This document shows, one piece after another, positions 24,526 to 43,460 of a stretch of DNA of 64,000 nucleotides. The stretch is from Thermanaeromonas sp. C210 (GTDB lineage Bacteria; Bacillota; DSM-521; Neomoorellales; Neomoorellaceae), in NCBI RefSeq assembly GCF_013167955.1, contig NZ_BLWF01000002.1, positions 124,001-188,000 of the forward strand, read 5' to 3'. Every line of letters begins with the position of its first letter. Position 1 is the stretch's first letter. Both the position numbers and the translations under genes were made by a program. The notes below the pieces were generated by a model. That model was given only the letters and a program-made list of their open reading frames with translations. It was not told the DNA's origin and searched no databases.

Positions 24526-24579
24526 GGAGTATACTTCGCCGCCCTCAAAAGGGCACAATAATCCTTCTTGCTTTCGCAC

Positions 24580-24705
24580 TTTCCACGCTTACGAGGTTAG
24601 CTGACGGGTTCGGGTCGAAAGCTAACCCTACCTGTATCCGTCCGGTATACAGGATTCACCCCGAAGTTTGGTTCCCCCGCTCCCCTACGGATTCAGCGTT
24701 CCCTT
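24580..24705 (-). promoter_or_regulatory. c-di-AMP riboswitch (ydaO-yuaA class)
   Basis: On the minus strand the conserved pieces of the ydaO aptamer occur in order: CGCTGAATCC, AGCGGGGGAACCA, GGGGTGAATCC, then GGTAGGGTTAGC, ACCCGAACCCGTCAGC and TAACCTCGTAAGCGT. The first and last pieces form the closing stem (ACGCT/AGCGT). A terminator follows before the aminomutase gene. In this class c-di-AMP binding stops transcription, so expression should rise when c-di-AMP falls, as after hyperosmotic shock. A TATAAT-like -10 (24712-24717) lies just upstream. Confidence 0.9.
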
Positions 24706-24812
24706 TATTCAATTATAAGTGTTTCACTCTATTTTATTATAAAATAAGCCCCGCCCGAAGGCAATGTAAATTTTTAGACCGCCGGGGGCCCTTTTACCCT
24801 CTACCGGAAGGG

Positions 24813-26543: not shown

Positions 26544-29500
26544 TTAAAGGGAAAAACGCCCGGCCGCCCTCCTATCACCTCCCCCGGTTCCGCCCCCGTA
26601 AAAAGGTTCAAAGTCCAACTGGCCGGAGGCCGGTGGTCGATTGCCCACCTTCCAAAGGATCACCCAGGGCACCAGGACTTCCTGGGGGGAAACCCCTCCG
26701 TGGAGGTAGCGAGGGGAATGCTCCTCATCTTCGGGACGGAAACCATGATTCACCGCATAACCGTGATCCCCGGCTATCAGGATAAGGGAACGGGCCGGGA
26801 AGGCAGATACCAGCGGCAGGAGCTGGCGGCGGAATCCCAAGGCCAGCTCGGCCAGGAAGGTGGCATAGTCCGCCGTAGAGGTATGAACCTTCTCATCTAC
26901 CAGGTTGAGCCGCAGGACCGGCTTGGGGTCCCCCGGGGCCAGGCGGTTCCCCTGCCGGGCCACCTCGGCCGGGTCGCCGGGAGGAAGGCCGATCTCCAGA
27001 AAGCGCAGGGCCTTTCCTGCCCCTTCAAGGCGTGCCAGTTGGGTGGCGGTGACGGTGGGAACGGGGCACCACAGGAGGCCCCGGGCCACTTCCTCATATA
27101 AGACCCCGGAGCGACCCAGCTCGGCCACCATCACTTCACAGGCATCCCACCGTAGCCCGTCCGCCCAGATAAAATACAGGGCCTCCGGGCGCCAGCGCTG
27201 GCGGTAGCGCTCCAGCCGGGACAAAAGCTCTTCGAGGGTAAGGCCGGGAGCGCTGCTCCTCTCCCCGTAAAACCGGCGGAAGGCGTCGGCGTAGCCAGCC
27301 AGAAGCCGCCGCACCTCCCCTTCCACCTGCGTTAAGGGAAAATCTCCGGCCAGGCCTAACAGGGAAAGCCGCTGCTCCAGGTGGGCATACAGGCTCTCTA
27401 GGGTGCCCAGGTGGGAGCTGTAAACCTTCTCCCAGTCCGGCCCTTTAAAGCCCTCCGGATCGGCCGCGCCCAAGGCCTTTAAGGAATAGACTAGCCTGGT
27501 GGCCAGGCGGCACGCGTCCAGCCAGGCGGCCGGCTCGGATCCTTCCCAGGCCGGGCCGGGCGGGGCGGCGGAGACCGCGTCCAACCGGGCTACGGCGGCG
27601 GCCAACTCTGGGCCGTCCGCCCCCTCCAGCCATTCCAGGTACCGGACGGTGGCCCGGCGTAGAAGGACGGGGAAAATGTTCTCCCGGGCCAAGACTGGAA
27701 GGAGGTCCGGACCCGGTATATCCTCCCGGGGGGCTAAGACCTGCCAGTAGGCTTCCTCCGCCTGGCCGTCCAGGCTCTCCCGGGCTGCCATGACGGCGGC
27801 CGGGATCACTTCCTCCGGGCCGGCCTGTAGCTCGAATACCTGTCGGGCCAATTCCAGGAGGCTGCTCAGGGCGGCGGGCGGCACCTCCGGCAGCGAACAC
27901 AGGCGGGCCACCATGCGGGCGTCGCGGCCGTGGATCTTCAGCCACCATATGGTGGTGAGCACCAAGAGAAAGCGCGACCCGCCCCACTGGTTCCAGTAGG
28001 GCACCAATTCAGGATACGTCTCCGCCAGCCAGGTATACACGTTCCCCGGGGAATGGCTGTAGAAAGCCTTCTTCTCAACCAGGCAATCGGCCGTTCCCTT
28101 TACCCCGCTACCTATCACCCGTATGTGGGCGCCGGGTTCCACTTCTTCCTTATCCGGCCCGGTCATCCAGCGCCGTACCACGTCTAGGAGCTGATCCGGC
28201 CGGAATATGCGATTTACGAGGAGGTCGTAAAGGTCGTCCAGGTTGCGGTCCAGCACCAGGACCTGGCCCGCCAGGGCCTGGTTGATGAGGTCTACAGCGG
28301 CCCGGTTCAAAACGGATTTCAGCCTGGTTAGAAGGCCAGGTGAATCCACGTCCAGATCTAGAAGTCGCCGAACCCGCGCAGCTTCCTGGGCCCGGCCCAC
28401 CTTTTCCAGCCCGGCCAGGAAGCCCTGCACCTTTTCCCGGTAAAGGGGCTCCTTAAGGGCCTGGAGGTAATCCCGGAGGCCCTGCTCTATGGCCGCCTGG
28501 ATGGCGGCCGTAGAGGGCAGTTCGTCCTTTACCCCCAGCACCAGGCCGCACGGGCAGGCCGGCTGGAGGGCCAGCTTCTCCTCCGGGTTTTCCGCACACT
28601 GGCGGGCCAGGGCGGTTACCAGAAGCTGGTTAATCCGCCTCAAGGAATCCGGAGCAGCCACCTGCTTCAATTGGCTGAGGAGACTGAGGAGCTGGTAAGC
28701 CTCTCCCTCCCGCAGGGCATGATAGGGCTGAAAACGTTCCGGCGAGCGCAGTCTCCGGTGCTCGGCAGTATACTGTTCTATATAATCCCGCTGGAAACGA
28801 GCAAAGGCCGAAGCCGCCTGCTGGTAGAGGTCCTCCTGGTAGAACAAATCGGGCGTCTGGAGGAGGCCCAATAATTTATCCCTTGCCTCCCGCAGTCCTT
28901 GATAGGCAGGACTATCGGGCAGGGACAGTTGGGGCGCCGTAAGATAGCCGTACATAAAGAGAAAATGATTAAGGTGCTGCTCCAGAAAGGCCCCTAGTTT
29001 TTGGGTGCGTTCCCAAGCCAGCTCCCATAAGGGGTCGGCCTGGTAGGCCGCAAGGAAGCGCTCCAGACCCTCCCGTGGCCCGTAGGATACTTTTATTTCT
29101 TCCAGCAAAGCGGCCACCCTGCGGAGATCGGCCCGGGCCGTCTCCCAGGGCAGCGCCGCCAGGGCCGGGTAATCGGCCACACTTTCCAGGAGATGTTCCA
29201 CCCTCTGGAGGTGCGTACCAGCTTCGCGGCGGAACCGTACCAGGTAGTCCCAGATCTCCTGCTGCCGGGCCGGAGTGAAAGTACCCTGCCGCCAGGCGGG
29301 GGGCAAAAACTTAACTCCTGCCAGGATCTCCTGAAAGGAGGCGGGTAAGGTTTCGGCCAAGGCCAGCTTGTCGATCTTCTGGAAATTGTAGGGTCCTATC
29401 TGCCTCAGGTTTAACCGGCGGCCGGAAGCATAGGGTACGACGAGGCCCGCCCCCACCAGGGCCAGTACCAGAAGTTGAAACCCGGTTTCGCTCAACCCAA

Positions 29501-32081
29501 AGGGGCTCTTGCGCAATTTCCAGCTTAACGTCTCCAGTTCTGCCGGGCCTTCCTTGAGGTGTTCCAAGCAGGCGGCCACCAGGGGATTCTTTTCGGGCGA
29601 AATCTCCAGGAAGTATCCTTCTCGGGTTTTCTTGACTACCCCCAGGGGATGGAAAAAGTTTTCCAGGCCCATTTTGAGGTTGGCATCGGGCTTGCCTTTT
29701 AATTCCCCCGGTATCAGCAACTCGTTTATCACCCGCTGGAGCAGGGGGGGCAGGATAACTCCTCCCCGGGGAGCCACCTTGGCATGCCGGGGATAGCGCC
29801 GGCCCAGAACTACGGCCGCCAACCTCTCTACCAGGCCTTTAAAGGATTCATAAGCCGGGTTGGTGGGCCAAGGCACCTCCTCGCCTTCCCCATCTATCAG
29901 CCGCCCCGAGAGGTAGGCCCGGCGGAAAATATCCTGTACCCGGCCCTTAACCTCCTCCCAGATTCCGTCCAGGTATGCACGCACCCTCTGCCCGGTAGGG
30001 CTGGCATCCCCGGCATACTCCTCCCGCAAGAGCTCATAAGCCAGGGCCTGGGTAAGGAACTCCTCCTCTTCGGAAAGGTCGGAAGGCAGCCAGAACAGGA
30101 AGGCACGGCCCGCCGGGCCGGTCAGGGCCGGTAGAAGCCGCTCCTCCAGGTGCCGGTGCTGCCGCTCTGTGTCGCCGGCCCATCCCAGCACGAGGATGAA
30201 ATCCACGTCGGTGGTGAGGCTTTCGCGGGCCAACTCTTGCACGCTTTCAGGGCTTAGATCTTCCAAATCCTTCAGCAGGATCAAGCCCTCCCGCCGGGTC
30301 TGCTGCCAGGATACCTCTAAGGGGGTGCGGGTTTCGGCCAGGAGGGAGGCCAGGGGCAAACGGGCGTCGGTAAGATGCCTCCCCAGGGTCGTAAAAATCC
30401 GCCGGTCTCCGGGGAAAAACCCCTTCTTGAGGTATTCCACCCGCCGGCGTACCAAGAGCTGCACGTCGGCCTGGAGATCCACGTAAAAGGCCGTATCCAG
30501 GGGCGAGGACCCTTCGTGGCAGCCGATATAGGCTCCGCCCCGGTACAGGCGCTGGAGGATATCGGCTATATATTCGTAATTCAAGTGCCATTCCAGCCGG
30601 GTAAGGGGGCAGAGGAGGAGATGGGTGAGATCGCGCACCGTAAGGGGCTTGGCCGAGGCGCCCAGGGCCGCAAGGATGAGAACTTTAAGGAGCCTGAATC
30701 CCAGTTCCTGCTCCCGCGGTTCCGGGAGGAGCCGGGGCATCTCCTCCTGGTAGTAATTGAAGACCTGTTGCACATAGGGGTTGGTTTCCGGTAGGGCCCG
30801 GATGCGGTCCTGGAAATGATCGAAAATGAGGTCGGGGCCGAGAAGGGTGTCTGCCGGTCGGTCCAAGAGGCCCGGTATCTGCCGGGCCGGGTCCCCGGTC
30901 AGGCGCGAGTATATAAAGTCCACCACCCCCCGGTGCTGGGAGAAAAGGGGGCGCAGGCGCTCCAGAAACGCCACCGTCAGGGGATGCACCGGATAAAGAT
31001 CATAAAATTCTTCTTGACTAAAGGGCAGTTCGTGAAAGGCCCCCTTGAGCTCCCCGTAAAGCTCGGCCAGATACTCCCGCGCAGGAGGCCGGTGGACGAT
31101 GAGGCGGCGGCTGATGATTTCTCGCAGGTGCTCGCCGGTGAGCCGGAAGCAGACGGGGTACCGGTCCTTTATTTTGTTAAAGGCTTCCGGCGGAATATCC
31201 CCTGTGGCCTCGATCTGCTCCTGAAGGGTGGCCACCACCCACAAGGGCATGCGCCGGGATATCTCTGCCAGGTACTGGAGGAAGCGTATATCCTCGTTAA
31301 AACTGCGGCTGTCGGGCTTGGAGCGCAAGAACTCCGACAGTTCGTCTATTAAAATTACCGCTCCTCCCGCCGCGCCGCCGTCGAGGAGGCTTTCCAGCTC
31401 GGCCATGACCTCCTGCCGGCGGTACCCCCAACGGAAGGGCATGCCCACCTGCCTTAACAGGGCCTGCAAAAGGTGGATATTCGCCGGGGCGAAAAGCTCC
31501 TCTTCGGTGGTTCCCCTCTGGGCCAGGAACTCCTCTAGGACTTCCGGGTAGCGGTCGGTCAGGATCGCCCTGGCCTGGGCGACATACTGCTCCCGCGTGG
31601 CCAGTCCCAAAGCCCTGCCGAAATTGGCCTGGGCGGCTTCATCCAGTGCCGCCAGCACAATATCCTCCAATTCTTCATGGTGGCTGTGCTCCACCAGAGA
31701 CACCGCAGCCACCAGGTAGCGCCGGCCTCCCACCCTTTCTAAAAGAGCCTGCCACCCCTCCGGCCAGGCGGCGGCGACCCTCTCCTTGGCGGCCATCACC
31801 TCCCGCTTTTCAGGAGAAGTGAGGAGGAGATGGAGGACCGCCAGGAGGTGGGACTTGCCGGAGCCGTAAGGCCCCAGGAGAAAGAAGCCCTGCCCCTCGT
31901 CCCGGGCTATGGCGCTCAGTACGGCCCCCAGGGCCCTCTCGGCTTCCCCGGTCAGGACGAAGCTCTGCACGAGGTGCTCTTGCAAATCGGGATCGCGGGC
32001 ATCCTGCAGCTGGATTACCGTACGGACCGCCGGTACCTCTATGAGATGGCCGATGGTGGGCTGGGAATTTTGCGGCCGCAT
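26544..32081 (-). CDS. Giant BrxC/PglY-like ATPase fused to a C-terminal PglZ-like domain
   Basis: 1845-residue cytoplasmic protein. The N-terminal P-loop ATPase (about 1-420) has Walker [12 protein letters not shown] (70-80), Walker [13 protein letters not shown] (241-252) and a sensor-like [11 protein letters not shown], matching the large ATPases of BREX/Pgl phage-defence systems. A long helical middle includes a small Cys motif ACPCG. The C-terminal 210 residues are PglZ-like (alkaline-phosphatase superfamily): [13 protein letters not shown] (Asp near 1640), [26 protein letters not shown] (near 1771) and [19 protein letters not shown]. In BREX these are separate proteins. ATG start behind AGGAGGG; a TPR gene lies 26 bp upstream. 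Defence is inferred from domains; no adenine methyltransferase, BrxA, BrxB or BrxL is nearby. Confidence 0.8.
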
Positions 32082-33371: not shown

Positions 33372-34604
33372 ATGTACCACTTTAATCTATCCGAACTGAT
33401 CCAAGCCGGAAGCCTTAAGGAGCTGCTCTCCGCCTTTAACCGCTTTACCGGCCTGGTGGTGAAAGGGGTGGGTTACAAAGGGCAGGTGGTTCTGCAGCCG
33501 GAAGGGCAGCAGGAGGCGCCCTATTGCCAGCTGATCTGCAGCACCCCTGCGGGTGAAGCGCGCTGCCGGCGAGCTTACGCCCGGGCCGGGCAGGAGGCCA
33601 GGAAATTCGGTGGACCCTATCTCTTTCGGTGCCACGCCGGCCTTTTAGGCTGGGCCCTGCCGGTAGCCATAGATCCGGAAGTAGGCCTCACCGTGGTCTG
33701 TGGTGAGGCCCACCTGAGCCCGCCGGATAAAGAATTCCCCTCCATGGTACTAGCCGTGGCCCAGGACCTACACCTGGACCCGGACCGGCTTCTTGCGGCT
33801 TCCCGGCAATTAAAACTGATCTCACCCCAGAAGGCCCAGAGCAGTGTGGAAATGCTCTACCTGATGGCCAACTACCTTGCCCGGGGACAGCGCACCGCCA
33901 TGGCAGCCATAGTTAAAGGGGAATGGCCGTCGCGGAGGGCAGTCCTTATGGAGCGGGAGCAGGAGCTACTGCTCCGGGTAAGGTCCCGCGACCACGCCGG
34001 AGCCAAGGAAATCCTCCAATCCCTCCTGAACGACCTGCAGGATCAGGAAAGCGTCGACATCCACCGCTTCCGTTCCCAGGTGATAAACCTCATCGTACTT
34101 TTGAGCCGGGCTGCAGCCGATCTGCCCGGCGAAGACCTCAGCCGGGTGTTCACCCTTAACGCCCAGCTCATCTGGCAGGCCAGCCAGGCCCCGGCAGAGG
34201 TCCTGCGGCAGCTTCCCTGGCAGGCCCTGGAAACCTTCTGCCCGCCCAAAGGGGAAGAAGAAGTAGGCCCCATTCTGGGCCGCGCCCTCCACTTTATCTA
34301 CGAGAATTACCACCAGCCCCACCTCACGGTAGAGGACATCGCCCGGGCGGCCTATGTAAGCCCCTCCTATTTGAGCCACCTCTTTCGCCGGAGCATGGGA
34401 GAAAGCATCATAGCCTATGTGACCCGTCTTCGCGTGGAAATGGCCAAAAAGCTCCTGCGGGAGGGATCCTTGGGCATCCGGGAAATAGGTAGGCGGGTCG
34501 GCTATCCCAACCCCAGCTATTTCACCCGGGTCTTTAAGAAAATAGTTCAGCTCTCTCCGCGGGAGTATCAGGAACAATATTATGCGGCGAAAAAGACCGA
34601 ATAG
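33372..34604 (+). CDS. AraC-family regulator with PocR sensory domain
   Basis: 410-residue transcription activator. The N-terminal PocR-type ligand domain (about 1-170) carries YCQLICSTPAGEARCRRAYA and PYLFRCHAGLLGWALPV, with conserved cysteines and His. The C-terminal AraC HTH (about 310-405) reads TVEDIARAAYVSPSYLSHLF and IREIGRRVGYPNPSYFTRVF. PocR domains sense small organic molecules such as propanediol and occur with corrinoid-dependent pathways. It stands directly upstream of the ECF/methyltransferase cluster on the same strand and is its likely activator. ATG at 33372 with AAAGGGGG. It could also act on the divergent TPR/PglZ operon, but that is less likely. Confidence 0.88.
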   Translation: MYHFNLSELIQAGSLKELLSAFNRFTGLVVKGVGYKGQVVLQPEGQQEAPYCQLICSTPAGEARCRRAYARAGQEARKFGGPYLFRCHAGLLGWALPVAIDPEVGLTVVCGEAHLSPPDKEFPSMVLAVAQDLHLDPDRLLAASRQLKLISPQKAQSSVEMLYLMANYLARGQRTAMAAIVKGEWPSRRAVLMEREQELLLRVRSRDHAGAKEILQSLLNDLQDQESVDIHRFRSQVINLIVLLSRAAADLPGEDLSRVFTLNAQLIWQASQAPAEVLRQLPWQALETFCPPKGEEEVGPILGRALHFIYENYHQPHLTVEDIARAAYVSPSYLSHLFRRSMGESIIAYVTRLRVEMAKKLLREGSLGIREIGRRVGYPNPSYFTRVFKKIVQLSPREYQEQYYAAKKTE

Positions 34605-34910
34605 TTACATTAGAAAGCAGAATCTTGTCAAGGAATCCGCGCGCAAACTGCGAAATCCTTTTTAACTTTCTAAGTAGACTTAGTCCGAGGAGGTGGTATT
34701 GGACCAGAAGGGTGACTAAAAGCGCATCTGGAGTCAAAAGGGAATGGCTCGGAGGACCCGGCTCCGGGCACCTTCGGTCGCCATCCCCGGGGGCTGGGAC
34801 CGAGGGATAAAGGCCATCGCCGTACGGGGCCGGTCGTGGGAGTGATGGGACCGGCATGCAGGCAGAATGCGCGAGGGGAAATAACCCGTAAGGAAAAGGA
34901 GGGAAAAAGC
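34605..34910 (+). promoter_or_regulatory. Long structured leader upstream of the ECF/methyltransferase cluster
   Basis: 306 bp without a gene between the regulator stop and the ECF S-component start. Several inverted repeats follow in order: GACT...AGTC, CCCGG/CCGGG, CGGTC...GACCG, and GCCGGTC...GACCGGC near the end. The density of stems suggests a folded RNA leader, perhaps a ligand-sensing one. It lacks the diagnostic B12-box of cobalamin riboswitches and matches no class I know. An activator site for the PocR/AraC protein may also lie here. Confidence 0.4.
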
Positions 34911-35552
34911 ATGGTGGACGTGAAGGAGCCCCAATATACTCTGGCATGGAATCCCAATCCCCCGTTGACCATGACCCAATACGCCGTTTATGCCATTGCC
35001 ATCGGCGTATCCATTATCGTGTCCTGGCTGGGCGTCTTCGCCGTGCCCATCGGCTTCGCAGGTGTTTCGGCCCTCTATGTGGCCTCGGCCTTTTATAATG
35101 TGATGACGCTGTGGTTCGGCGGATGGGGTATCCTGGCTTCATACATCGGGTGTCTTGTGGGGGCGGGCTGGCTGAGCGGCTTGCCGGTGCTCTTTTCCAT
35201 CCCCTGGTCTATTGCTGACATATTGGAGCCTTTGGTTCCCTTCATCATAATCCGCCTGGTAGGCCCGCGCATCGGTTTCGATCCCTTGGGAAGGAATGTC
35301 CTGAAATCCTTCAAAAATTACCTCTTCTACTTCTTCTTCGGTGCCCTTATCCCCACCATCATCAGCGGGCTCTTCGGTACCGCTTTGCTGGTCTTAGGGG
35401 GCATAGTGCCGCCCAACGCCTTCTACCCCACATGGGTGGCCTGGTTTGTAGGGGGCACCATCGTCATTGCCATCATCGGGCCCATACTGTTGACCACCCT
35501 GTCTCCTGTTATCGAAAGATTCGGCTTGACTACCCGGGGCATCTGGTCTTAA
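34911..35552 (+). CDS. ECF transporter substrate-binding (S) component, unknown substrate
   Basis: 213-residue membrane protein with about six spans (QYAVYAIAIGVSIIVSWLGV, GFAGVSALYVASAFYNVMTL, ILASYIGCLVGAGWLSG and onward). Position before EcfT and EcfA genes identifies it as the S component of an energy-coupling-factor importer. The ATG at 34911 sits behind GGAGGG. The S subunit sets specificity; sequence alone does not reveal the ligand. The downstream corrinoid methyltransferases suggest a methylated amine or related compound. ATPase and T subunits are supplied by the two next genes. Confidence 0.78.
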   Translation: MVDVKEPQYTLAWNPNPPLTMTQYAVYAIAIGVSIIVSWLGVFAVPIGFAGVSALYVASAFYNVMTLWFGGWGILASYIGCLVGAGWLSGLPVLFSIPWSIADILEPLVPFIIIRLVGPRIGFDPLGRNVLKSFKNYLFYFFFGALIPTIISGLFGTALLVLGGIVPPNAFYPTWVAWFVGGTIVIAIIGPILLTTLSPVIERFGLTTRGIWS

Positions 35553-35620
35553 GGGAATAAGAACCCTTGGGAACCCGGGGACCGGACCCGGAACGGTACC
35601 GCAACAAAGGAGATGAAAGG

Positions 35621-36676
35621 ATGCCGGATACCGCCAGTGCCAATAAACAATACGTAAGGACGCTGCTGTTCTCCATGCGGGCCGACACGGCCCTGGCCCG
35701 GATTCACCTCGTGACCAAACTGGCGGCTACCCTTCTCCTGTCCCTGGTGCTGGTGAGGGGTATGGATATGGGCAGCCCGGACCCGGCAATGGTGATGGTA
35801 CTACTCCTTTTATCCCTTCTACCCCATATCTGGGCCGGGACTCTCCAGTGGGTCTTTCGCTCTTACCTGGTGTTGATCTTTTTTATGCTGCTGACCCTGT
35901 TCATCAACTGGATCGTTTTCAATCCAGACCCCGGCAGCCGGGTATTCTACCGGTGGGAAGTTTACCACGGATATATTCCCATCGGCATCTCCCTGTCCCT
36001 CGTAGCCTTCGTGGTGGCCGGCCTGGTGACCTTCTGGTTTACCAAAGGTATTTTTTCCGCCCTGATGGCCGGGCTGGCCGCCCTGGCTCTGGTAGAGCTC
36101 ACCGGTTTGGACTACAGCTGGATCGGGGCCAAAATCGATTTTTTCCACCCCCTGTATATTTACCTGTCCGACAAAAACATCCTGGTTGCGGTCACCAAGG
36201 TCGGCGGTTATGCCGCCATGGTTTTTCTCACTCTAATGTTAGTTATGACGGTACGGGAGTTCGAATTCGTGGGAGTCCTCTGCCAGTTGGGCCTGCCCTT
36301 CCGCCTTAGCTTCTTTATTTCCCTAGCATTAAGGAGTATGAGCACCGCCATGTTAGACTACGAAACCATCGTGCAGGCTCAAAAGGCCAAGGGTATCGGG
36401 CTGCAGAAGCGCCCCATATGGCAGCAACTTAAAGAATTCGCCTTTCTTGCCGTACCCCTTGTGGCCACCATGTTCCGCCGGGCCAGTGAAGTAGGACCGG
36501 CCCTGCTGGCCCGGGGTTTCCACCGGGCCCGAAAGCCCACCCCCTTTCATGAAACAATGCCCTTCCGGCCTGCGGACTGGGCCGTGATAATCCTATGCCT
36601 GGCGCTGGTGCTCCTCGTATACGCCGGCAACTTTAACCTTACCCGCGCCCTGGGATGGTGGGTGAACTTATTATGA
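35621..36676 (+). CDS. ECF transporter transmembrane subunit EcfT
   Basis: 351-residue coupling subunit with five to six membrane spans. The EcfT signature with the Ala-Arg-Gly motif appears as ASEVGPALLARGFHRARKP, preceded by QAQKAKGIGLQKRP. The ATG at 35621 lies behind AAAGGAG. Its stop overlaps the start of the ATPase gene in an ATGA. Longer than housekeeping EcfT (about 265) owing to extra N-terminal sequence. Couples the S component to the fused ATPase. Confidence 0.88.
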   Translation: MPDTASANKQYVRTLLFSMRADTALARIHLVTKLAATLLLSLVLVRGMDMGSPDPAMVMVLLLLSLLPHIWAGTLQWVFRSYLVLIFFMLLTLFINWIVFNPDPGSRVFYRWEVYHGYIPIGISLSLVAFVVAGLVTFWFTKGIFSALMAGLAALALVELTGLDYSWIGAKIDFFHPLYIYLSDKNILVAVTKVGGYAAMVFLTLMLVMTVREFEFVGVLCQLGLPFRLSFFISLALRSMSTAMLDYETIVQAQKAKGIGLQKRPIWQQLKEFAFLAVPLVATMFRRASEVGPALLARGFHRARKPTPFHETMPFRPADWAVIILCLALVLLVYAGNFNLTRALGWWVNLL

Positions 36677-38475
36677 AGCCGGCAATTATACTTCGCGATC
36701 TCTGGTGGCGCTACCCCGCCTTTACTGGGAAGTTAAACCCCTGGGCTCTTCAGGGGGTAGACCTGGAGATTGAAGCGGGCGAGTTTGTGGCCCTTACCGG
36801 GCCCAGCGGTGCGGGCAAGACCACCTTGTGCAGCATCATCGCCGGAATTATACCCCACGCCATCAAGGTGCCCTACGGCCAGGTGAACAACTACTGGCGA
36901 GGCTCCGTGGAGGTCTTAGGGGAACCGGTAACTTACCTGGAAGGTGAGGGTTCTCAAGCCGCCATCCGCGGGCGGGGCGTCCTCTCGCCCCGGGTAGGCC
37001 TCGTTATGCAGGATCCGGAAAACCAATTCCTGCGGATGAGCGTCCTCCATGAGGTGGCCCTGGGGATGCAGATCCTCCAGCTGCCCGCTTCCGAAATCGA
37101 AGCCCGCGCCCGGGAAGCATTAAAAATGGTCAATCTCGAACATTTGTGGCCGCGGGCGTCCCTTACCCACCCGGCCGACCTGTCCGGCGGGCAGAAACAG
37201 CGGGTGGCCCTGGCGTCCTTCCTGGCCATGCGGCCCGAAATCCTGGTTTTAGACGAGCCTACCAGCGACCTGGACCCGGTGGGTAAGAGGGAAGTCATGG
37301 CCGCGGTAAAGAGCCTTAAGGAGCAATACGGCCTTACCGTAATCCTGGTGGAGCATAATCCCGAGGTCATTATGGAGTTTGCCGACCGGGTTATCCTCCT
37401 GGACGAAGGCCGTATTCATTACACCGCTCCGCCGGCCGTTTTTTACAACCGCGTAGACGAATTAGAACGCCACGGCGTTATGGTTCCCGAAGCCATCAGG
37501 GTGCTCCATGCGGCCGGGTGCTCCCTGGAAGACCATGCCCCGGTCACCGTGCAGGGGGCTGCCGCCCGCCTGGCCCCCCGCTTGCAATCCATGCCCGTGC
37601 CCCGTCCCGATCCTCCGCCCCCCAGGGGGGAAGCCGTCATTAGGGTGGAGGAAGTGGAGCAGAGCTACCCCGACGGGACCGTGGCCCTTAAGGGCGTCAC
37701 TCTCCAAATATACCGGGGTGAGTTCCTGGCCTTATTGGGGGCCAACGGCAGCGGCAAGACCACCCTGTCCAAAGTCCTTTGCGGCATATATCCCCTTTCC
37801 AAAGGAAAGGCCGAGGTTTTAGGGCTGGACATACGGTCCAAAAAGGTCCGCTCCCAGCTTCCCCGGTACGTAGGCTATGTGTTTCAAAACCCCGAACACC
37901 AGATTTTCACCCGCAGCGTCTTCGATGACGTAGCTTACGGGTTGCGCCACATGGGACTGCCAGAGGAAGAAATCAAGAGAAGGGTCGCCCGGGCTTTGGA
38001 GATAGTGGGGCTTTCGGAATTGGCGGAAGAGGACCCCCTTTTCCTAGGGAAGGGGCAGAAACAACGGCTGGCGGTGGCCAGTATTGTGGCCATGGAGCCG
38101 GAAATCCTCATTGTGGACGAGCCGACCACGGGCCAGGATTATCGCATGTCCGCCAACATCATGACCCTCCTCCAGGAGCTGAACCTCCAAGGGACCACCT
38201 TAATCGTCATTACCCACGATATGAGTCTGGTGACTACCTACTGCCCCCGCTCGGTGGTTCTCCGGGAAGGCCGGGTTGTTTTCGATGGGGACACCAGGGA
38301 CCTTTTCAGCAGCCCGGATCTGGTGGAAGAGGCCCTGCTCTATCCGCCCCAGGCGGTTCAGCTCACCTGGGAGATACAGAAACTTAAGCCGGAATGGCCG
38401 TCCTTAATAAGCGTAAAAGAGTGGGAACAAGTTTTGAGCAGTGGGGAGGCGAAGCTCAATGAAAACCGGTCATGA
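36673..38475 (+). CDS. Fused double ATPase of the ECF transporter (EcfA-EcfA')
   Basis: 600 residues with two ABC ATPase domains in one chain. Domain 1: Walker A GPSGAGKTT, signature LSGGQKQRVALASFLA, Walker B ILVLDEPTSDLDP. Domain 2: Walker A GANGSGKTT, a non-canonical signature LGKGQKQRLAVASIVA, Walker B ILIVDEPTTGQD. In most Firmicutes the two ATPases are separate proteins. The ATG at 36673 is coupled to the EcfT stop. Its 3' end overlaps the corrinoid-protein gene by 17 bp, so all belong to one operon. Confidence 0.92.
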   Translation: MKPAIILRDLWWRYPAFTGKLNPWALQGVDLEIEAGEFVALTGPSGAGKTTLCSIIAGIIPHAIKVPYGQVNNYWRGSVEVLGEPVTYLEGEGSQAAIRGRGVLSPRVGLVMQDPENQFLRMSVLHEVALGMQILQLPASEIEARAREALKMVNLEHLWPRASLTHPADLSGGQKQRVALASFLAMRPEILVLDEPTSDLDPVGKREVMAAVKSLKEQYGLTVILVEHNPEVIMEFADRVILLDEGRIHYTAPPAVFYNRVDELERHGVMVPEAIRVLHAAGCSLEDHAPVTVQGAAARLAPRLQSMPVPRPDPPPPRGEAVIRVEEVEQSYPDGTVALKGVTLQIYRGEFLALLGANGSGKTTLSKVLCGIYPLSKGKAEVLGLDIRSKKVRSQLPRYVGYVFQNPEHQIFTRSVFDDVAYGLRHMGLPEEEIKRRVARALEIVGLSELAEEDPLFLGKGQKQRLAVASIVAMEPEILIVDEPTTGQDYRMSANIMTLLQELNLQGTTLIVITHDMSLVTTYCPRSVVLREGRVVFDGDTRDLFSSPDLVEEALLYPPQAVQLTWEIQKLKPEWPSLISVKEWEQVLSSGEAKLNENRS

Positions 38476-39127
38476 TCCCATAGAGGCTGCCCGCCAGGCG
38501 GTAATAGACGGCGACAGCCAGGCTGCTCTAAAGGCCGTGCAGGACGGTCTGGCCCAAGAGCTAGATCCGCAGGCAATTCTGGATCAGGGGCTTATTGCCG
38601 GGGCTCAGGTGGTAGGACAAAAGTTCGAGGCCGGCGAGTATTTTCTGGCCGACCTGATGCTGGCCGGTAACGCCTTAAAGGCTGCCCTGGAAATTCTGCA
38701 GCCCGAACTGCAGCGCCAGTGCACTGGTTATCAGTCCCGGGGTAAGGTGCTGATAGCTACGGTAGAAACCGACATCCACGACATCGGCAAAAACATAGTA
38801 AGCTCCATGTTGGTGGCGGCCGGTTTTGAGGTTGTAGACCTGGGGGTGGACGTACCCGCCGGCAAAATCTTAGAGGCCGCCCTCAAGGAGCAGCCTCAAG
38901 TCGTAGCCCTTTCGTCGCTCCTGACCACTTCGCGGCCGTATTTGCGGGATGTTATAAATCTTTTCCAGGAAAAGGGCCAGCGGGAAAACTATCGGATAAT
39001 CATCGGCGGAGCTGCCGTTAATGCCGAATATGCGCGGGAAATAAAGGCCGACGGTTACGCGGAGAATGCCCTGGAAGCCGTTCATTTAGTCCGCCGGCTG
39101 ATAGGAGGCGAATCCCAGGATGCTTAG
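38459..39127 (+). CDS. Corrinoid protein of a methyltransferase system (MtmC/MttC-like)
   Basis: 222-residue methyl carrier. An N-terminal helical cap (about 1-85, LIAGAQVVGQKFEAGEYFLA) precedes a B12-binding Rossmann domain with the base-off motif TDIHDIGKNIV (axial His107), the ALSSLLTTS strand and the IIIGGAAVN loop. It accepts a methyl group from the adjacent MtmB-like enzyme and passes it to a pterin methyltransferase. The ATG at 38459 has GGGGAGG upstream and overlaps the ATPase gene; its end overlaps the next gene by 8 bp. Confidence 0.92.
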   Translation: MKTGHDPIEAARQAVIDGDSQAALKAVQDGLAQELDPQAILDQGLIAGAQVVGQKFEAGEYFLADLMLAGNALKAALEILQPELQRQCTGYQSRGKVLIATVETDIHDIGKNIVSSMLVAAGFEVVDLGVDVPAGKILEAALKEQPQVVALSSLLTTSRPYLRDVINLFQEKGQRENYRIIIGGAAVNAEYAREIKADGYAENALEAVHLVRRLIGGESQDA

Positions 39128-40481
39128 CTTTGTAGAAATAATGGAACGGGCCGAAACAGGGCCTTACATGGCCGAAGCCGATTTCGATCTGCAGCTCGTA
39201 GCCGCAACGGCCCGGCGTCTGGCCCGTGAATACGGCCTGCGCTTCCGGCCGGAAGAAGTAGTACCCGAGGACGAAAAACAGGCTGATGCCCTTTATGCCG
39301 CCGGCCTGGACATGGCCGTGGCCGTAGGCTTGTACTGCCGTTCGACCAGCAGAGTCATGCAGTTCACCAGGGAAGAGATCGAAGGGGCCCTCCATATGGC
39401 CCCCCGGGAAATAACGGTGGGCCAGGGCCGCGACAGCCGCCTCCTTTTCGCCCGGAGGCCGGACGATTCGCGGTATCCGGTGGTCTTCGGCGGCAACGCG
39501 GGCGCCCCCATCCCGGAAGAATTATACCTGGCCACCGTGCTATCTTATGCTCGGGAGCCCCTCATAGACGGCCTGGACCACGGGGCCATTGTGATGGTGG
39601 ACGGCCGGGAGGTACGGACCGGAAGCCCCCTGGAAATCACCGCCACCCGACGGGAGCTGAGTTTCCTGCGTCAGGGTATTACCCGCTGCGGCCGCCCGGG
39701 TATGCCCCTTATCGCCGCCGAAAGCAGCGGTACTTCCCTAGGCGACCTGGCAGTAGCCCACCCCGATTACCTGCGGACCTGCGATATCCACTTGGTGCCT
39801 ATCTTAAGCGAACTTAAAACGGATTACCACAACCTGGCCAAGGTGGCCAATTTCGTGGAATACGGGGGATATAACGGCAACCTGCCCAACCCCATGGTAG
39901 GCGGTTACGCCGGAGGACCGGAAGCCACGGCCGTGGCTACCATGGCCGCCTTCATGCTGGGAGTCCTGGTTAACCAGGCCCACCTCCACCTCTGCCACCC
40001 CGTCCACATCCGTTACACCTCCACCAGCACCCCTGAAGTCATGTGGGTCATCAATCTGGTCGGCCGCGCCTTTGCCCGCCACAGTCCCCTCATTCTCCTG
40101 GGCGACATCTTCGCCACTAACGGCGCGGGCACGGAAGAGCTTCTGTGGGAGGTGGCGGCCAACGCCATTGCCAATGTAAAGGGCGGTATGCACCTTTTAG
40201 GCGTAGCGGCTACCAACGGTAAGACCCATAACGCCAGCGGCCTGGAGACCCGCCTGATGGCCGAAGTCGGACGGGCCGTGGTGGACAAGGGCTTAACCTA
40301 CGGCCAGGCCAACGAACTTATCTCCCGGCTGCTGCCCCTCTACCAGCATACCTTCGCCCAACCCCTCTTCGGCCGGCCCTTCAATGAAGTCTACGATTTG
40401 GTTCGCATAGAGCCGGTGGAGGAATGGCGGAGGACTTACGAAGAAGTGAAAGAAAAGCTGGCCGCCATGGGGCTGTTCTAA
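39120..40481 (+). CDS. MtmB-like amine:corrinoid methyltransferase without pyrrolysine
   Basis: 453 residues resembling methanogen monomethylamine methyltransferase MtmB from end to end: MERAETGPYMAEADFDLQLV, CGRPGMPLIAAESSG, LVPILSELKTDYHNLAKVAN, PMVGGYAGGPEATAVATMAA, HPVHIRYTSTSTPEV and LETRLMAEVGRAVV. MtmB of methanogens needs pyrrolysine encoded by an in-frame UAG; here the frame runs through with no UAG. By analogy with pyrrolysine-free MttB relatives that demethylate glycine betaine, carnitine or proline betaine, it should move a methyl group from an unknown substrate to the preceding corrinoid protein. ATG start behind GGAGG, overlapping the corrinoid gene. Confidence 0.82.
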   Translation: MLSFVEIMERAETGPYMAEADFDLQLVAATARRLAREYGLRFRPEEVVPEDEKQADALYAAGLDMAVAVGLYCRSTSRVMQFTREEIEGALHMAPREITVGQGRDSRLLFARRPDDSRYPVVFGGNAGAPIPEELYLATVLSYAREPLIDGLDHGAIVMVDGREVRTGSPLEITATRRELSFLRQGITRCGRPGMPLIAAESSGTSLGDLAVAHPDYLRTCDIHLVPILSELKTDYHNLAKVANFVEYGGYNGNLPNPMVGGYAGGPEATAVATMAAFMLGVLVNQAHLHLCHPVHIRYTSTSTPEVMWVINLVGRAFARHSPLILLGDIFATNGAGTEELLWEVAANAIANVKGGMHLLGVAATNGKTHNASGLETRLMAEVGRAVVDKGLTYGQANELISRLLPLYQHTFAQPLFGRPFNEVYDLVRIEPVEEWRRTYEEVKEKLAAMGLF

Positions 40482-40518
40482 GTTTTGTAGAGTTTGCCCT
40501 AACGGGAGGTTTTCCTGC

Positions 40519-41394
40519 GTGTCACGCTACAACCTGCACCAGACTACCGTACCATCCGCCTCAACCGGGCCGGCCGGCCACCGGCCCACGGTGATGATAG
40601 GTAGCATTTTCTTCCGGGGCCAAAGGCTCGTGCTCGACGCAGAACAAGGCCTCTTCGACGCCCGGGCAGCCCGCGACCTCCTCCAGCAGGAGGAGGAGCT
40701 CGCCCGGACCTACTCCCTGCCGCGCATTATCGATGTTATCGGAGAAACCCCCCTGGCCTTGCGCAGGTACTTGGATTTTGTCGCCGAAAACTCCCAGGAG
40801 CCCCTCATGCTGGATGCCGTGAACCGGCCCGTAAGGATGCAGGTGCTGAAGGAACTGAAGGGGTCTCCTTTGATCCAGCGGATCATTTATAATTCTTTAG
40901 ATGAGCGTATGACCGAGGAGGAGCTAGCTCTCCTGGAGGAGTGCGGCGTCCGGAGGGTGGTGGTTCTAGCCCTGGGCAACACAGCCGTGCGGCCCCGGGA
41001 CCGCCTGGATCTCCTGGATGGCCCCAACGGGCTACTGGCCAAACTCCAGGCCCGCGGTTTCGATATAATGATCGATGCCGGCGTCCTCGACCTTACCAGC
41101 ATCGGCTGGGCGGCCCTGACCATAGCCCGGGCCAAGGAAAGGTGGAATCTACCCGTGGGGTGTGCACCCTGCAACGGCTTTTATCTCTGGATGCGAGAGA
41201 ACCGGCCTTCAGAGGCGGTACGCATAGCCACGGCCACAGCCGCCCTAACCCTACCCCTGGCCTGGGGGGCGGATTTTCTCTTCTACGGCTCCCTGGCCAA
41301 TGCGCCCTGGGTGTATCCTGCCGTCCAGGCCGCCGGCAGCATGTTGGCTTATGCCGACAGAGAGATGACCCGGGAGAAACGAAGGGCCTTTTGA
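40519..41394 (+). CDS. MtrH-family methyltransferase (corrinoid to tetrahydrofolate)
   Basis: 291-residue TIM-barrel protein of the MtrH family. In acetogens and related anaerobes such proteins (MtgA type) move the methyl group from the corrinoid protein to tetrahydrofolate. Seen: MIGSIFFRGQRLVLDAEQGL, PRIIDVIGETPLALRRYL, EPLMLDAVNRPVRMQVLKEL, DIMIDAGVLDLTSIGWAALT and PVGCAPCNGFYLWM. The GTG at 40519 follows GGGAGG. Last gene of the ECF/methyltransferase operon, ended by a bidirectional terminator. It completes the route from the external methyl donor to the Wood-Ljungdahl pool. Confidence 0.88.
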   Translation: MSRYNLHQTTVPSASTGPAGHRPTVMIGSIFFRGQRLVLDAEQGLFDARAARDLLQQEEELARTYSLPRIIDVIGETPLALRRYLDFVAENSQEPLMLDAVNRPVRMQVLKELKGSPLIQRIIYNSLDERMTEEELALLEECGVRRVVVLALGNTAVRPRDRLDLLDGPNGLLAKLQARGFDIMIDAGVLDLTSIGWAALTIARAKERWNLPVGCAPCNGFYLWMRENRPSEAVRIATATAALTLPLAWGADFLFYGSLANAPWVYPAVQAAGSMLAYADREMTREKRRAF

Positions 41395-41477: not shown

Positions 41478-41513
41478 GGGCTAAAAGGCCGGTTTGCTCC
41501 CGGCCTTTAGCCC
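41478..41513. terminator. Bidirectional terminator
   Basis: GGGCTAAAAGGCCGG pairs with CCGGCCTTTAGCCC around a 7-nt loop. It closes the methyltransferase operon and overlaps the last codons of the convergent thioredoxin-like gene. Confidence 0.8.
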
Positions 41514-41749
41514 ATTTCCTCTTCTATCCACTTCTTGATCTCGGCTTTATCCGGCACCCGGCCGGAAACCTTGACCTTGCCGTTGATTACCAGCCCCGGG
41601 GTCATCACGACCCCGTAGTCAAGTATTTTGTTGATGTCCGTGACCTTTTCCACGTCCGCCGCCACCCCCATTTCGGCCAAGGCGTTAATGACGTTCCTCT
41701 CCAGCGCATTACAGCGGGCGCACCCCGTGCCCAAAACTTTAATTTCCAT
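41507..41749 (-). CDS. Small thioredoxin-like redox protein
   Basis: 80-residue glutaredoxin/thioredoxin-fold protein of the small redox-active-disulfide group. The active site is GTGCARCNALE (CxxC near residue 10), with the cis-proline block VVMTPGLVINGKV. Such proteins accompany DUF318-type permeases and ArsR regulators. Third gene of the arsR-permease-thioredoxin operon. It may reduce the transported species or the permease. Confidence 0.87.
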   Translation of the reverse strand: MEIKVLGTGCARCNALERNVINALAEMGVAADVEKVTDINKILDYGVVMTPGLVINGKVKVSGRVPDKAEIKKWIEEEMG

Positions 41750-41817
41750 TTACGGTCTCCCCTTTCTCTATAAAGTGTATGAGGCTCTCGCCAGCGGCCT
41801 AAAAGGAGTTTTCCCCT

Positions 41818-42987
41818 TCAACTAACCAGGGCTCCATACAAGGTTCCCGTCAGGGTGGACATTATGACCACCAGGATAACATAGACCAAGGTCTTCTTGA
41901 AGCCCAGGACGCTGTTGATGACCAGCATACTGGGAAGGCTCAAAGCCGGACCCGCCAGGAGAAGGGCCAAGGCGGGTCCCTGGCCCATGCCGGAACCCAG
42001 AAGCCCCTGGACGATGGGCACCTCCGTCAGGGTAGCAAAGTACATGAAGACGCCGAAGATAGAAGCCGCGAAATTGGCCAGAAGCCCGTTGCCTCCCACC
42101 ACCATGGATATATACTCGGCCGGGATTATCCCCGCATCCACACCGGGTCTCCCCATGAGGAATCCGGCCGCCAGTACCCCTCCGAAGAGGAGGGGTAAAA
42201 TCTTAAGGCTGAAATCCAGGGTAGAATCCACCCACGCCTTTAGTTCTTCCCGCGTAAACCAGGCCCGCAATACCAGGGCGAGGGCGATAACGAGCCCGGC
42301 GACCAGATACCACTTAATGCTGTAGACGCCGTACCAGAAACCCGCCTTCTCCGCAGGTTGACCCCAGGCGGCAAAGACAAGAATCAAGATCAAAAGAAGG
42401 AAAAACAGCACGGTCTGACCTAAGGTCCGCCCGGTTTCCCCTCCTTCCGGCATTACCAACCATTTAGCCCTCTCCTGCTCTTCTCCTCTAAAGAGTAAGG
42501 CCATGCTGAGGCCTATAATCACCGAAAACATGACCGCTCCCAAGGCCCGGGCCAGTCCCATTTGCCATCCTAGAACCCGGGCCGAAAGGATAATGGCCAA
42601 AACGTTTATTGCTGGGCCGGAATAAAGAAAAGCTATGGCCGGTCCTAAGCCTGCTCCCCGTTTGTATATGCCCATGAACAAGGGTAGGACAGTGCAAGAG
42701 CACACGGCGAGAACGGCCCCGGAAACAGCCCCTATCCCATAGGCCGCGGCCTTAGGGCTATCCGGTCCGAAATACTTCATCACGGACTGGGAGGAAAGAA
42801 AATTGCTCATGGCCCCAGCGATAAACAGGGCGGGAATCAGGCAGAACAGGACGTGTTCCCGGGCGTAATCGTGGAGCATGTAGAGAGCTTCTAAAATAGC
42901 CCCCTGTATCCTGGGGTGGTGGAAGGGTAGAAAATAGGCGGCCAGGAATACGGCTGCCACGAGCATCAATTTGCCTTGTCTTCCCAT
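41818..42987 (-). CDS. Permease of the ArsP/DUF318 family
   Basis: About 389 residues with ten or so membrane spans. The family-defining double motif appears as SGAVLAVCSCTVLPLFMGIY (first half) and the second-half ATLTEVPIVQGLLGSGMGQGPALALLLAGPALSLPSML region. Relatives export trivalent organoarsenicals or act as uncharacterised metal/metalloid permeases. Start uncertain: ATG at 42987 (12 bp after GGAG) or 42999, which abuts that site. Behind an ArsR regulator, so probably induced by a metal or metalloid; the substrate is not known. Confidence 0.85.
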   Translation of the reverse strand: MGRQGKLMLVAAVFLAAYFLPFHHPRIQGAILEALYMLHDYAREHVLFCLIPALFIAGAMSNFLSSQSVMKYFGPDSPKAAAYGIGAVSGAVLAVCSCTVLPLFMGIYKRGAGLGPAIAFLYSGPAINVLAIILSARVLGWQMGLARALGAVMFSVIIGLSMALLFRGEEQERAKWLVMPEGGETGRTLGQTVLFFLLLILILVFAAWGQPAEKAGFWYGVYSIKWYLVAGLVIALALVLRAWFTREELKAWVDSTLDFSLKILPLLFGGVLAAGFLMGRPGVDAGIIPAEYISMVVGGNGLLANFAASIFGVFMYFATLTEVPIVQGLLGSGMGQGPALALLLAGPALSLPSMLVINSVLGFKKTLVYVILVVIMSTLTGTLYGALVS

Positions 42988-43050
42988 GGAACTGCGCATC
43001 TCCTTCTCAAAACCGGGCTGGTTGCAGTGCCTGCCGGGTGTTGTTCGCCC

Positions 43051-43419
43051 TTACATTTCCCTTACGCCCGGGCAGGAATCCAGCACTTTCCCGTCGGCAA
43101 CGAGGTTTTGATACCGCTCCCACTCTTCTTTCATGGAGGGGATATCCTTGGGGGGTGTGGCCAAAAATCCCTCTAATTCCCTCTGCCATCCGGCCAACAC
43201 TGCTCTATTTAACCGGTAGCGGACCCGCTGCCCTTCTTTCTTTTCTTCCGCCAATCCCACAGCCTTCAACCTTCTAAGGTGCTGGGAGACGGTGGGTTGG
43301 GCCATATTCATAACTGCTACCAGTTCACACACATACATATCTCTCTCCAAGAGAAATTTAATGATTTTCATGCGGGTGGGATCCGCCAAAACCTTGAGGC
43401 ATTCAATTAATCCTTCCAT
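43051..43419 (-). CDS. ArsR-family metalloregulator
   Basis: 122-residue winged-helix repressor. The HTH reads MYVCELVAVMNMAQPTVSQHL and the wing KKEGQRVRYRLN. A Cys in the recognition region (YVCELV) resembles the ELCVCDL metal-binding helix of ArsR, though only one Cys is present there; a second Cys lies near the C-terminus (DSCPG). The ATG at 43419 follows GGAGGTG. First gene of the operon with the permease and thioredoxin, probably autorepressing through the AT-rich site downstream of its promoter. Confidence 0.9.
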   Translation of the reverse strand: MEGLIECLKVLADPTRMKIIKFLLERDMYVCELVAVMNMAQPTVSQHLRRLKAVGLAEEKKEGQRVRYRLNRAVLAGWQRELEGFLATPPKDIPSMKEEWERYQNLVADGKVLDSCPGVREM

Positions 43420-43460
43420 AATTTTCACCTCCTGCAACCGGCGGCGTGAAAATCGAGGTC

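Follow-up and report, generated by a model that had tools for sequence, protein, structure and literature searches.

The 64,000-nucleotide stretch of the Thermanaeromonas sp. C210 genome analyzed here (NZ_BLWF01000002.1, positions 124,001-188,000; all of it is called the window, and its own numbering is used below) carries a block of seven co-directional open genes on the plus strand (33372-41394, coordinates as first given). The block encodes a regulator, an energy-coupling factor (ECF) importer, a corrinoid protein and two methyltransferases, one of them a homolog of the methylamine methyltransferase MtmB that lacks pyrrolysine. This is the arrangement reported by a first-pass annotation, and it is confirmed: all seven frames are open and run in one direction, and six of the seven products have Pfam assignments. 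The features are as follows (loci and genomes used for comparison are designated by L and G numbers).

33372..34604, plus strand: regulator with a PocR sensory domain and an AraC-type helix-turn-helix domain, 410 aa (PF10114, 106.9 bits; PF12833, 77.8 bits)
34605..34910, plus strand: leader of 306 bp between the regulator and the S gene, no known riboswitch (cmscan)
34911..35552, plus strand: putative ECF S component, no named family, 213 aa (homologs 26-33% identical, beside T and A genes)
35621..36676, plus strand: ECF T component, CbiQ-like, 351 aa (PF02361, 51.9 bits)
36655..38475, plus strand: fused double ECF ATPase, 606 aa (two ABC_tran stretches; TIGR04521 and TIGR04520 above cut-off)
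38459..39127, plus strand: corrinoid protein of the MtmC/MtbC/MtgC type, 222 aa (PF02310, 98 bits; PF02607, 72 bits)
39120..40481, plus strand: MtmB-superfamily methyltransferase without pyrrolysine, 453 aa (PF05369, 346.9 bits)
40519..41394, plus strand: MtrH/MtgA-type corrinoid:tetrahydrofolate methyltransferase, 291 aa (PF02007, 152 bits)

Three starts were revised from the sequence, those of the S gene (34911, an ATG after AAGGAGGG), the T gene (35621) and the corrinoid gene (38459); the fused ATPase has an alternative start at an inner ATG (36673). The T and ATPase genes overlap by at most 22 bp, the ATPase and corrinoid genes by 17 bp, and the corrinoid and mtmB genes by 8 bp, which bears out the claim that overlapping genes join the transporter to the enzymes; a gap of 37 bp separates the MtmB and MtrH genes. 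Ribosome-binding sequences precede the S, T and MtmB genes. A vitamin or cobalamin riboswitch before the S gene was rejected, because cmscan of 34560-34960 returned zero Rfam matches even at E<=1; a scan of the whole window at gathering cut-offs likewise placed none in the leader. Beyond the Pfam assignments, the corrinoid protein scores 194 bits with TIGR02370, under the cut-off of 215, while its Pfam B12-binding domains are above theirs and its DxHxxG motif reads DIHDIG. The MtrH/MtgA-type protein is assigned by PF02007, and its NF047990 (MtgA) score of 256 bits is below the cut-off of 550.

The MtmB homolog is a full-length member of its superfamily, as the PF05369 match covers profile positions 3-450 of 450 and far exceeds the cut-off of 25 bits. 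It is the sole PF05369 gene in the host genome, where no MttB (PF06253) match was found at the threshold used. The protein aligns end to end with Methanosarcina barkeri MtmB (1L2Q/1NTH) at an E-value of 5e-71 and about 30% identity. Its frame contains no internal stop of any kind, and the absence of a UAG codon noted in the first pass thus holds. In a 57-row alignment, the position of Pyl202 is occupied by Ile198, and the four residues that surround pyrrolysine, all present in every pyrrolysine-containing row, are replaced as well (Glu229 by Leu225, Glu259 by Leu255, Gln333 by Asp329, and Tyr335 by Phe331). Because pyrrolysine and its active-site partners have all been replaced, a pyrrolysine-type reaction with methylamine is very improbable for this protein. 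A low-confidence AlphaFold model built from four sequences confidently matched MtmB structures only (1TV2/1L2Q/1NTH, TM 0.73); its residues 124-263, among them part of the active site, are not reliably modeled. In the phylogeny that the first-pass annotation had proposed, pyrrolysine-containing proteins form a single group (support 100/100) that excludes the window protein, which instead groups with proteins from two other genomes, Candidatus Formimonas warabiya DCMF and G198 (support 100/99); deeper branching order is not resolved. Compared with the MtmB/MtmC/MtbA system of M. barkeri, the window thus shares the superfamily, the fold (as far as the low-confidence model goes) and a paired corrinoid protein, but it lacks UAG, is only about 30% identical, and has an MtrH/MtgA-like protein instead of MtbA as the second methyltransferase.

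When exact short patterns were run against the genomes of 84,980 species, one close relative of the block was found, in strain DCMF (L002). Identity to the window is 63% for MtmB, 59% for the corrinoid protein, 41% for MtrH and 35% for PocR (L002:6432-7772). The gene order is also alike (PocR, NCS1-family permease, corrinoid protein, MtmB, MtrH, adenine deaminase, PucR regulator), but DCMF has an NCS1 permease rather than an ECF importer, and downstream it has the adenine deaminase and, beyond PucR, a second set consisting of a corrinoid protein, an MtmB and a pterin-binding methyltransferase. The permease (PF02133, 144 bits) belongs to a family named for cytosine/purines, uracil, thiamine and allantoin; since it sits at the ECF position, the transporter slot has been taken by an unrelated carrier. 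The adenine deaminase directly follows MtrH (TIGR01178, 625 bits; cut-off 472), and the whole locus lies downstream of carA-carB-pyrF-pyrE. In G198, whose MtmB is 46% identical to that of the window, a PucR gene is adjacent, a gene for the FAD subunit of xanthine dehydrogenase (XDH) lies about 12 kb away, and glycine-cleavage-like genes, as read from the sequence, are nearby. An extra search of the class and a second search of the phylum gave G198 as the only further member of this clade, the second phylum draw apparently being largely the same sample. The DCMF genome has eight MtmB genes, one of them with UAG. Three related non-pyrrolysine MtmB copies (L002:17060-18460, L092 and L094) are clustered with XDH, NCS2, BMP, YgeW/YgeY-like or PucR genes. 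A different arrangement was seen in a genome from the host's family (G401, L041:8764-11542), where two different non-pyrrolysine MtmB genes stand in tandem after one corrinoid gene, followed by a gene for a multi-spanning transporter-like protein, with no purine marker near.

The DCMF relative has probably already been observed at the protein level. In dichloromethane-grown DCMF, the largest increase was reported for a non-pyrrolysine MtmB, Ga0180325_111810 (log2 fold change +11.87), for which dichloromethane induction is described without a function (PMC9768040). Its published identity to Dehalobacterium formicoaceticum WP_089610783.1 is 30.32% (PMC9768040); we computed 30.323% between L002:10001-11365 and a non-pyrrolysine MtmB of G406, taken to be D. 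formicoaceticum. A second published identity, 28.26%, was not reproduced (27.35% computed). Because the first value matches and a rough interpolation of gene numbers from other loci in PMC9768040 also places Ga0180325_111810 at the L002 locus, the 63% ortholog of the window MtmB is very probably this protein. Such induction would suit a halomethane-linked system, in which the C1 unit comes from dichloromethane or a derived compound and PocR senses a small halogenated or hydrocarbon molecule; dichloromethane or other small hydrocarbons have been suggested as ligands of PocR domains (cited in PMC9768040). However, the authors of that study attribute dechlorination to enzymes of other families, those of the mec cassette; they report that Ca. 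Dichloromethanomonas elyunquensis lacks a homolog of Ga0180325_111810; the induction was measured against glycine-betaine-grown mixed cultures; and the main text is silent on any rise of the operon partners (PMC9768040). The NCS1 permease and adenine deaminase do not fit such a system either, and we regard it as highly doubtful.

In the window, the transport genes were identified to different degrees. A T protein with a CbiQ domain and paired ECF ATPases, with Pfam and TIGR matches above cut-off, identify these parts as those of an ECF importer. The S protein, in contrast, has no Pfam family above cut-off (MASE1 was sub-threshold only), and a PDB profile search with its family gave no relative; an AlphaFold model from one sequence predicts helices at low confidence (pTM 0.27). 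We call it an S component because of its size, its predicted helices and the location of its homologs beside ECF T and A genes. The full ECF importer described in the first pass therefore stands by family for T and the fused ATPases, and is putative for S, which is named from these features.

Relatives of the S protein, about 30% identical over most of the length, were found in 9 other genomes out of 299. Where the flanking sequence is long enough, they are accompanied by T and ATPase genes (L079, L080, L081, L083, L084 and L086). In L084, the S-T-A-A genes adjoin those for diaminopropionate ammonia-lyase (YgeX), YgeY, YgeW and carbamate kinase, all above curated cut-offs; ygeX, ygeY and ygeW belong to the reductive uric acid pathway (PMC12507026). 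In L081, the S relative adjoins a dihydropyrimidinase-family enzyme (above cut-off) and a racemase-like protein. In L079, the S, T and two ATPase genes adjoin a corrinoid-MtmB pair from a different MtmB clade, which is an independent link between ECF and MtmB genes. MtmB is present in 6 of the 10 genomes with an S relative and in 21 of the 388 others (p 1e-5, uncorrected for genome relatedness and drawn from two samples of different size). Other S relatives (L080, L088 and L089, in G047, G076 and G153) adjoin a TRZ/ATZ-type amidohydrolase, a dehydrogenase and a protein resembling formylmethanofuran:tetrahydromethanopterin formyltransferase (Ftr).

ECF systems typically import vitamins and metals, and the importer could accordingly carry cobalt, a corrinoid or its precursor, or another vitamin for the corrinoid enzymes, with the methyl donor entering the cell otherwise. 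The T component matches CbiQ, and the operon does need a corrinoid. Yet the leader has no cobalamin, thiamine pyrophosphate or other riboswitch, DCMF has an NCS1 permease in the ECF slot, no Pfam family of vitamin S components matches the S family, and S relatives adjoin dihydropyrimidinase, racemase-like and uric-acid genes. Taken together, cofactor or metal import appears quite unlikely. The earlier view of import and demethylation as one module is supported by the overlapping genes, by the DCMF gene order with an unrelated transporter in the same slot, by the lack of a vitamin riboswitch and by the ECF genes beside a corrinoid-MtmB pair in L079; it is a prediction from the genes, with both transport and enzyme activity as its inferred parts.

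The surroundings of MtmB genes were then compared across the phylum. A PF05369 search covered 398 genomes sampled evenly over the phylum, of which 27 were positive, and the 43 genomes of DCMF's class were searched via relatives of the window MtmB. The comparison comprised 42 non-pyrrolysine MtmB loci and 12 pyrrolysine MtmB loci; 40 MttB regions, taken from seven of the MtmB-carrying genomes, served as a second control. In an initial clustering of neighbors, purine genes appeared only at non-pyrrolysine loci. A marker was counted within 6 kb and only when matched by a protein from a different genome. At least one purine marker was present at 23 of 42 non-pyrrolysine MtmB loci, 0 of 12 pyrrolysine loci and 1 of 40 MttB loci (Fisher p of 7e-8 against MttB and 5e-4 against pyrrolysine MtmB); at least two were present at 18/42, 0/12 and 0/40, respectively. 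The difference persisted in a same-genome comparison (11 of 16 non-pyrrolysine MtmB versus 1 of 40 MttB, p 3e-7) and after collapsing at 70% identity into 26 clusters (13/26 versus 1/40 MttB, p 5e-6). The markers were 8-oxoguanine/adenine-deaminase-type amidohydrolases (15 loci), PucR (11), BMP/PnrA lipoproteins (11), the XDH molybdenum subunit (10), the XDH FAD subunit (4), NCS1 (3), YgeW (2), YgeY (2) and NCS2 (1). 8-Oxoguanine deaminase and XdhA were identified above cut-off, and Bmp, PucR and Xan_ur_permease were also matched.

With modest confidence, we propose that the block imports an N-methylated purine or purine-derived ring through the ECF transporter and demethylates it with the corrinoid enzymes, the methyl group passing to tetrahydrofolate; the substrate is deduced from context. 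The first-pass annotation spoke of an unnamed methylated compound. A methylated compound it still is, narrowed by context to N-methylated purines and purine-derived rings, and the substrates it suggested for assays (methylamine, betaines, N-methyl amino acids and aromatic methyl ethers) lie elsewhere than where the context points. The prediction is one of substrate class rather than of a particular purine or N-methyl position. Several observations weigh against our proposal. Within 6 kb of the window operon there is no purine gene, such genes having been found at the DCMF and G198 loci; only three members of the window clade are known; and 19 of the 42 non-pyrrolysine loci are markerless, which means that a purine link does not hold throughout the family. 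The choice of markers followed inspection of the loci, some loci come from sister genomes, and the XDH-family and amidohydrolase names are loose, most of these proteins in the host falling under NCBIfam cut-offs. Context cannot separate an N-methyl purine from another compound co-metabolized with purines. Finally, dichloromethane apparently induces the DCMF ortholog more strongly than any other protein, which a purine model does not predict.

The 19 markerless loci also leave room for a view in which the purine link of other non-pyrrolysine MtmBs does not reach the window clade, and the window protein demethylates choline, tetramethylammonium or methylamine. The sole biochemically tested non-pyrrolysine MtmB, MtqB of Methanococcoides methylutens Q3c, acts on tetramethylammonium and choline with low methylamine activity (PMC13044021). 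On the other hand, the nearest relative of the window block has a nucleobase-type NCS1 transporter beside adenine deaminase, the three clade loci showed no transporter for amines or betaines, the MtmB active-site residues around pyrrolysine are lost, and strain DCMF has separate MttB-type betaine systems (PMC9768040). An MtqB-like activity therefore seems unlikely. MtqB/MtqC resembles the window in pairing a non-pyrrolysine MtmB homolog with an adjacent corrinoid protein, but, compared by description only, it is archaeal, uses coenzyme M as acceptor, and is described with neither an ECF importer nor a purine context (PMC13044021).

A substrate close to purines but outside them also has to be weighed: an N-methylated ring of another type, for instance 1-methylhydantoin derived from creatinine, or a pyrimidine bearing a methyl group. 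Carriers for hydantoin and pyrimidines are known within the NCS1 family, the S relatives in L081 and L084 adjoin dihydropyrimidinase/hydantoinase-type enzymes, and the DCMF locus lies downstream of pyrimidine genes. Those genes, however, look like an ordinary biosynthetic operon, and the adenine deaminase and PucR in DCMF, PucR and the XDH subunit in G198, and 8-oxoguanine deaminase and XDH at many other loci are all of the purine type. We hold this substrate to be an improbable one.

Under the proposed import and demethylation of an N-methylated purine or purine-derived ring, the PocR-AraC protein would sense a small molecule and turn the operon on, and the importer (S, T and the fused ATPase) would take up the ring compound. 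The pyrrolysine-free MtmB homolog would transfer the N-methyl group to Co(I) of the corrinoid protein, and the MtrH/MtgA-type enzyme would pass it to tetrahydrofolate and thus into the Wood-Ljungdahl pathway. Reactivation of the corrinoid would depend on RACo encoded elsewhere in the genome, and the demethylated ring would enter host purine catabolism. A common substrate for the importer and MtmB, its methylated-purine nature and this direction of methyl flow are all inferred. As leaving groups, the ring nitrogens of purines surpass amines, and several methylated purine nucleosides carry a positive charge, as quaternary amines do; pyrrolysine therefore need not be required.

The host genome is consistent with such a scheme in its inventory: it encodes a carbon monoxide dehydrogenase/acetyl-CoA synthase alpha/beta protein above cut-off, two RACo-type corrinoid activators and seven XDH-family molybdenum proteins. 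Three XDH-family proteins lie in a purine-type island (G000:C1:118001-140000; L175 and L176) together with three SsnA/8-oxoguanine-deaminase-like amidohydrolases, two BMP lipoproteins, an ABC importer and a PreA/dihydroorotate-dehydrogenase-like protein. The host could therefore use both the methyl group on tetrahydrofolate and the demethylated purine.

The three-component corrinoid logic is already known, as is, since 2026, a functional non-pyrrolysine MtmB (PMC13044021). The statement in the first pass that such MtmBs are far less explored is accordingly partly dated, given that MtqB demethylates tetramethylammonium and choline. The same logic is found in the MtgB-MtgC-MtgA glycine betaine system and other non-pyrrolysine MttB systems, which share a related corrinoid protein and an MtrH/MtgA-type methyltransferase with the window; their first methyltransferase, however, is of the PF06253 (MttB) family, not found in the host genome, and only 1 of 40 MttB loci has a purine marker. 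Genes related to the anaerobic reductive uric acid pathway (XdhD, YgfK/UacX, SsnA, HyuA, YgeW, YgeY and YgeX) occur at several non-pyrrolysine MtmB loci and beside S relatives, but the pathway as described has no methyltransferase (PMC12507026). Within the queries and the collection used, our literature search found no link of corrinoid methyltransferases to methylated purines and no description of the purine association, the ECF importer or the S family.

Non-pyrrolysine MtmBs are numerous, and only the MtqB branch has a known function; one published tree holds 1,061 pyrrolysine and non-pyrrolysine MtmB sequences (PMC13044021). If our proposal is true, many of them would gain a role open to testing, namely action on purine-type substrates; the turnover of nucleic acids would be tied to the Wood-Ljungdahl pathway; and the cargo of ECF importers would extend to a methyl donor they are not known to transport. 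Methylated purines and related rings are a methyl source not known to be used in this way by the MtmB family. The broader idea, that several non-pyrrolysine MtmB clades in anaerobic Bacillota carry out corrinoid-dependent N-demethylation of methylated purines (for example, bases from RNA turnover), here with a dedicated ECF importer of a new S family, is one to which we give slightly less than an even chance.

Three other features of the window flank the block. Right after the MtrH gene, in convergent orientation, genes for a thioredoxin, an ArsP-type permease and an ArsR-type regulator occupy 41507-43437 on the minus strand. A link to organoarsenicals via the permease was set aside as chance, since these genes are on the opposite strand, have their own ArsR and were not seen at the DCMF and G198 loci. 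Upstream of the block, also on the minus strand, 26544-32081 encodes a protein of 1845 aa with a BrxC/PglY/SspC-like ATPase N-terminus (DUF6079) and a weak PglZ-like C-terminal stretch, possibly a fused phage-defense protein. A cyclic di-AMP riboswitch (ydaO/yuaA, 102.5 bits) lies at 24570-24708 on the minus strand.

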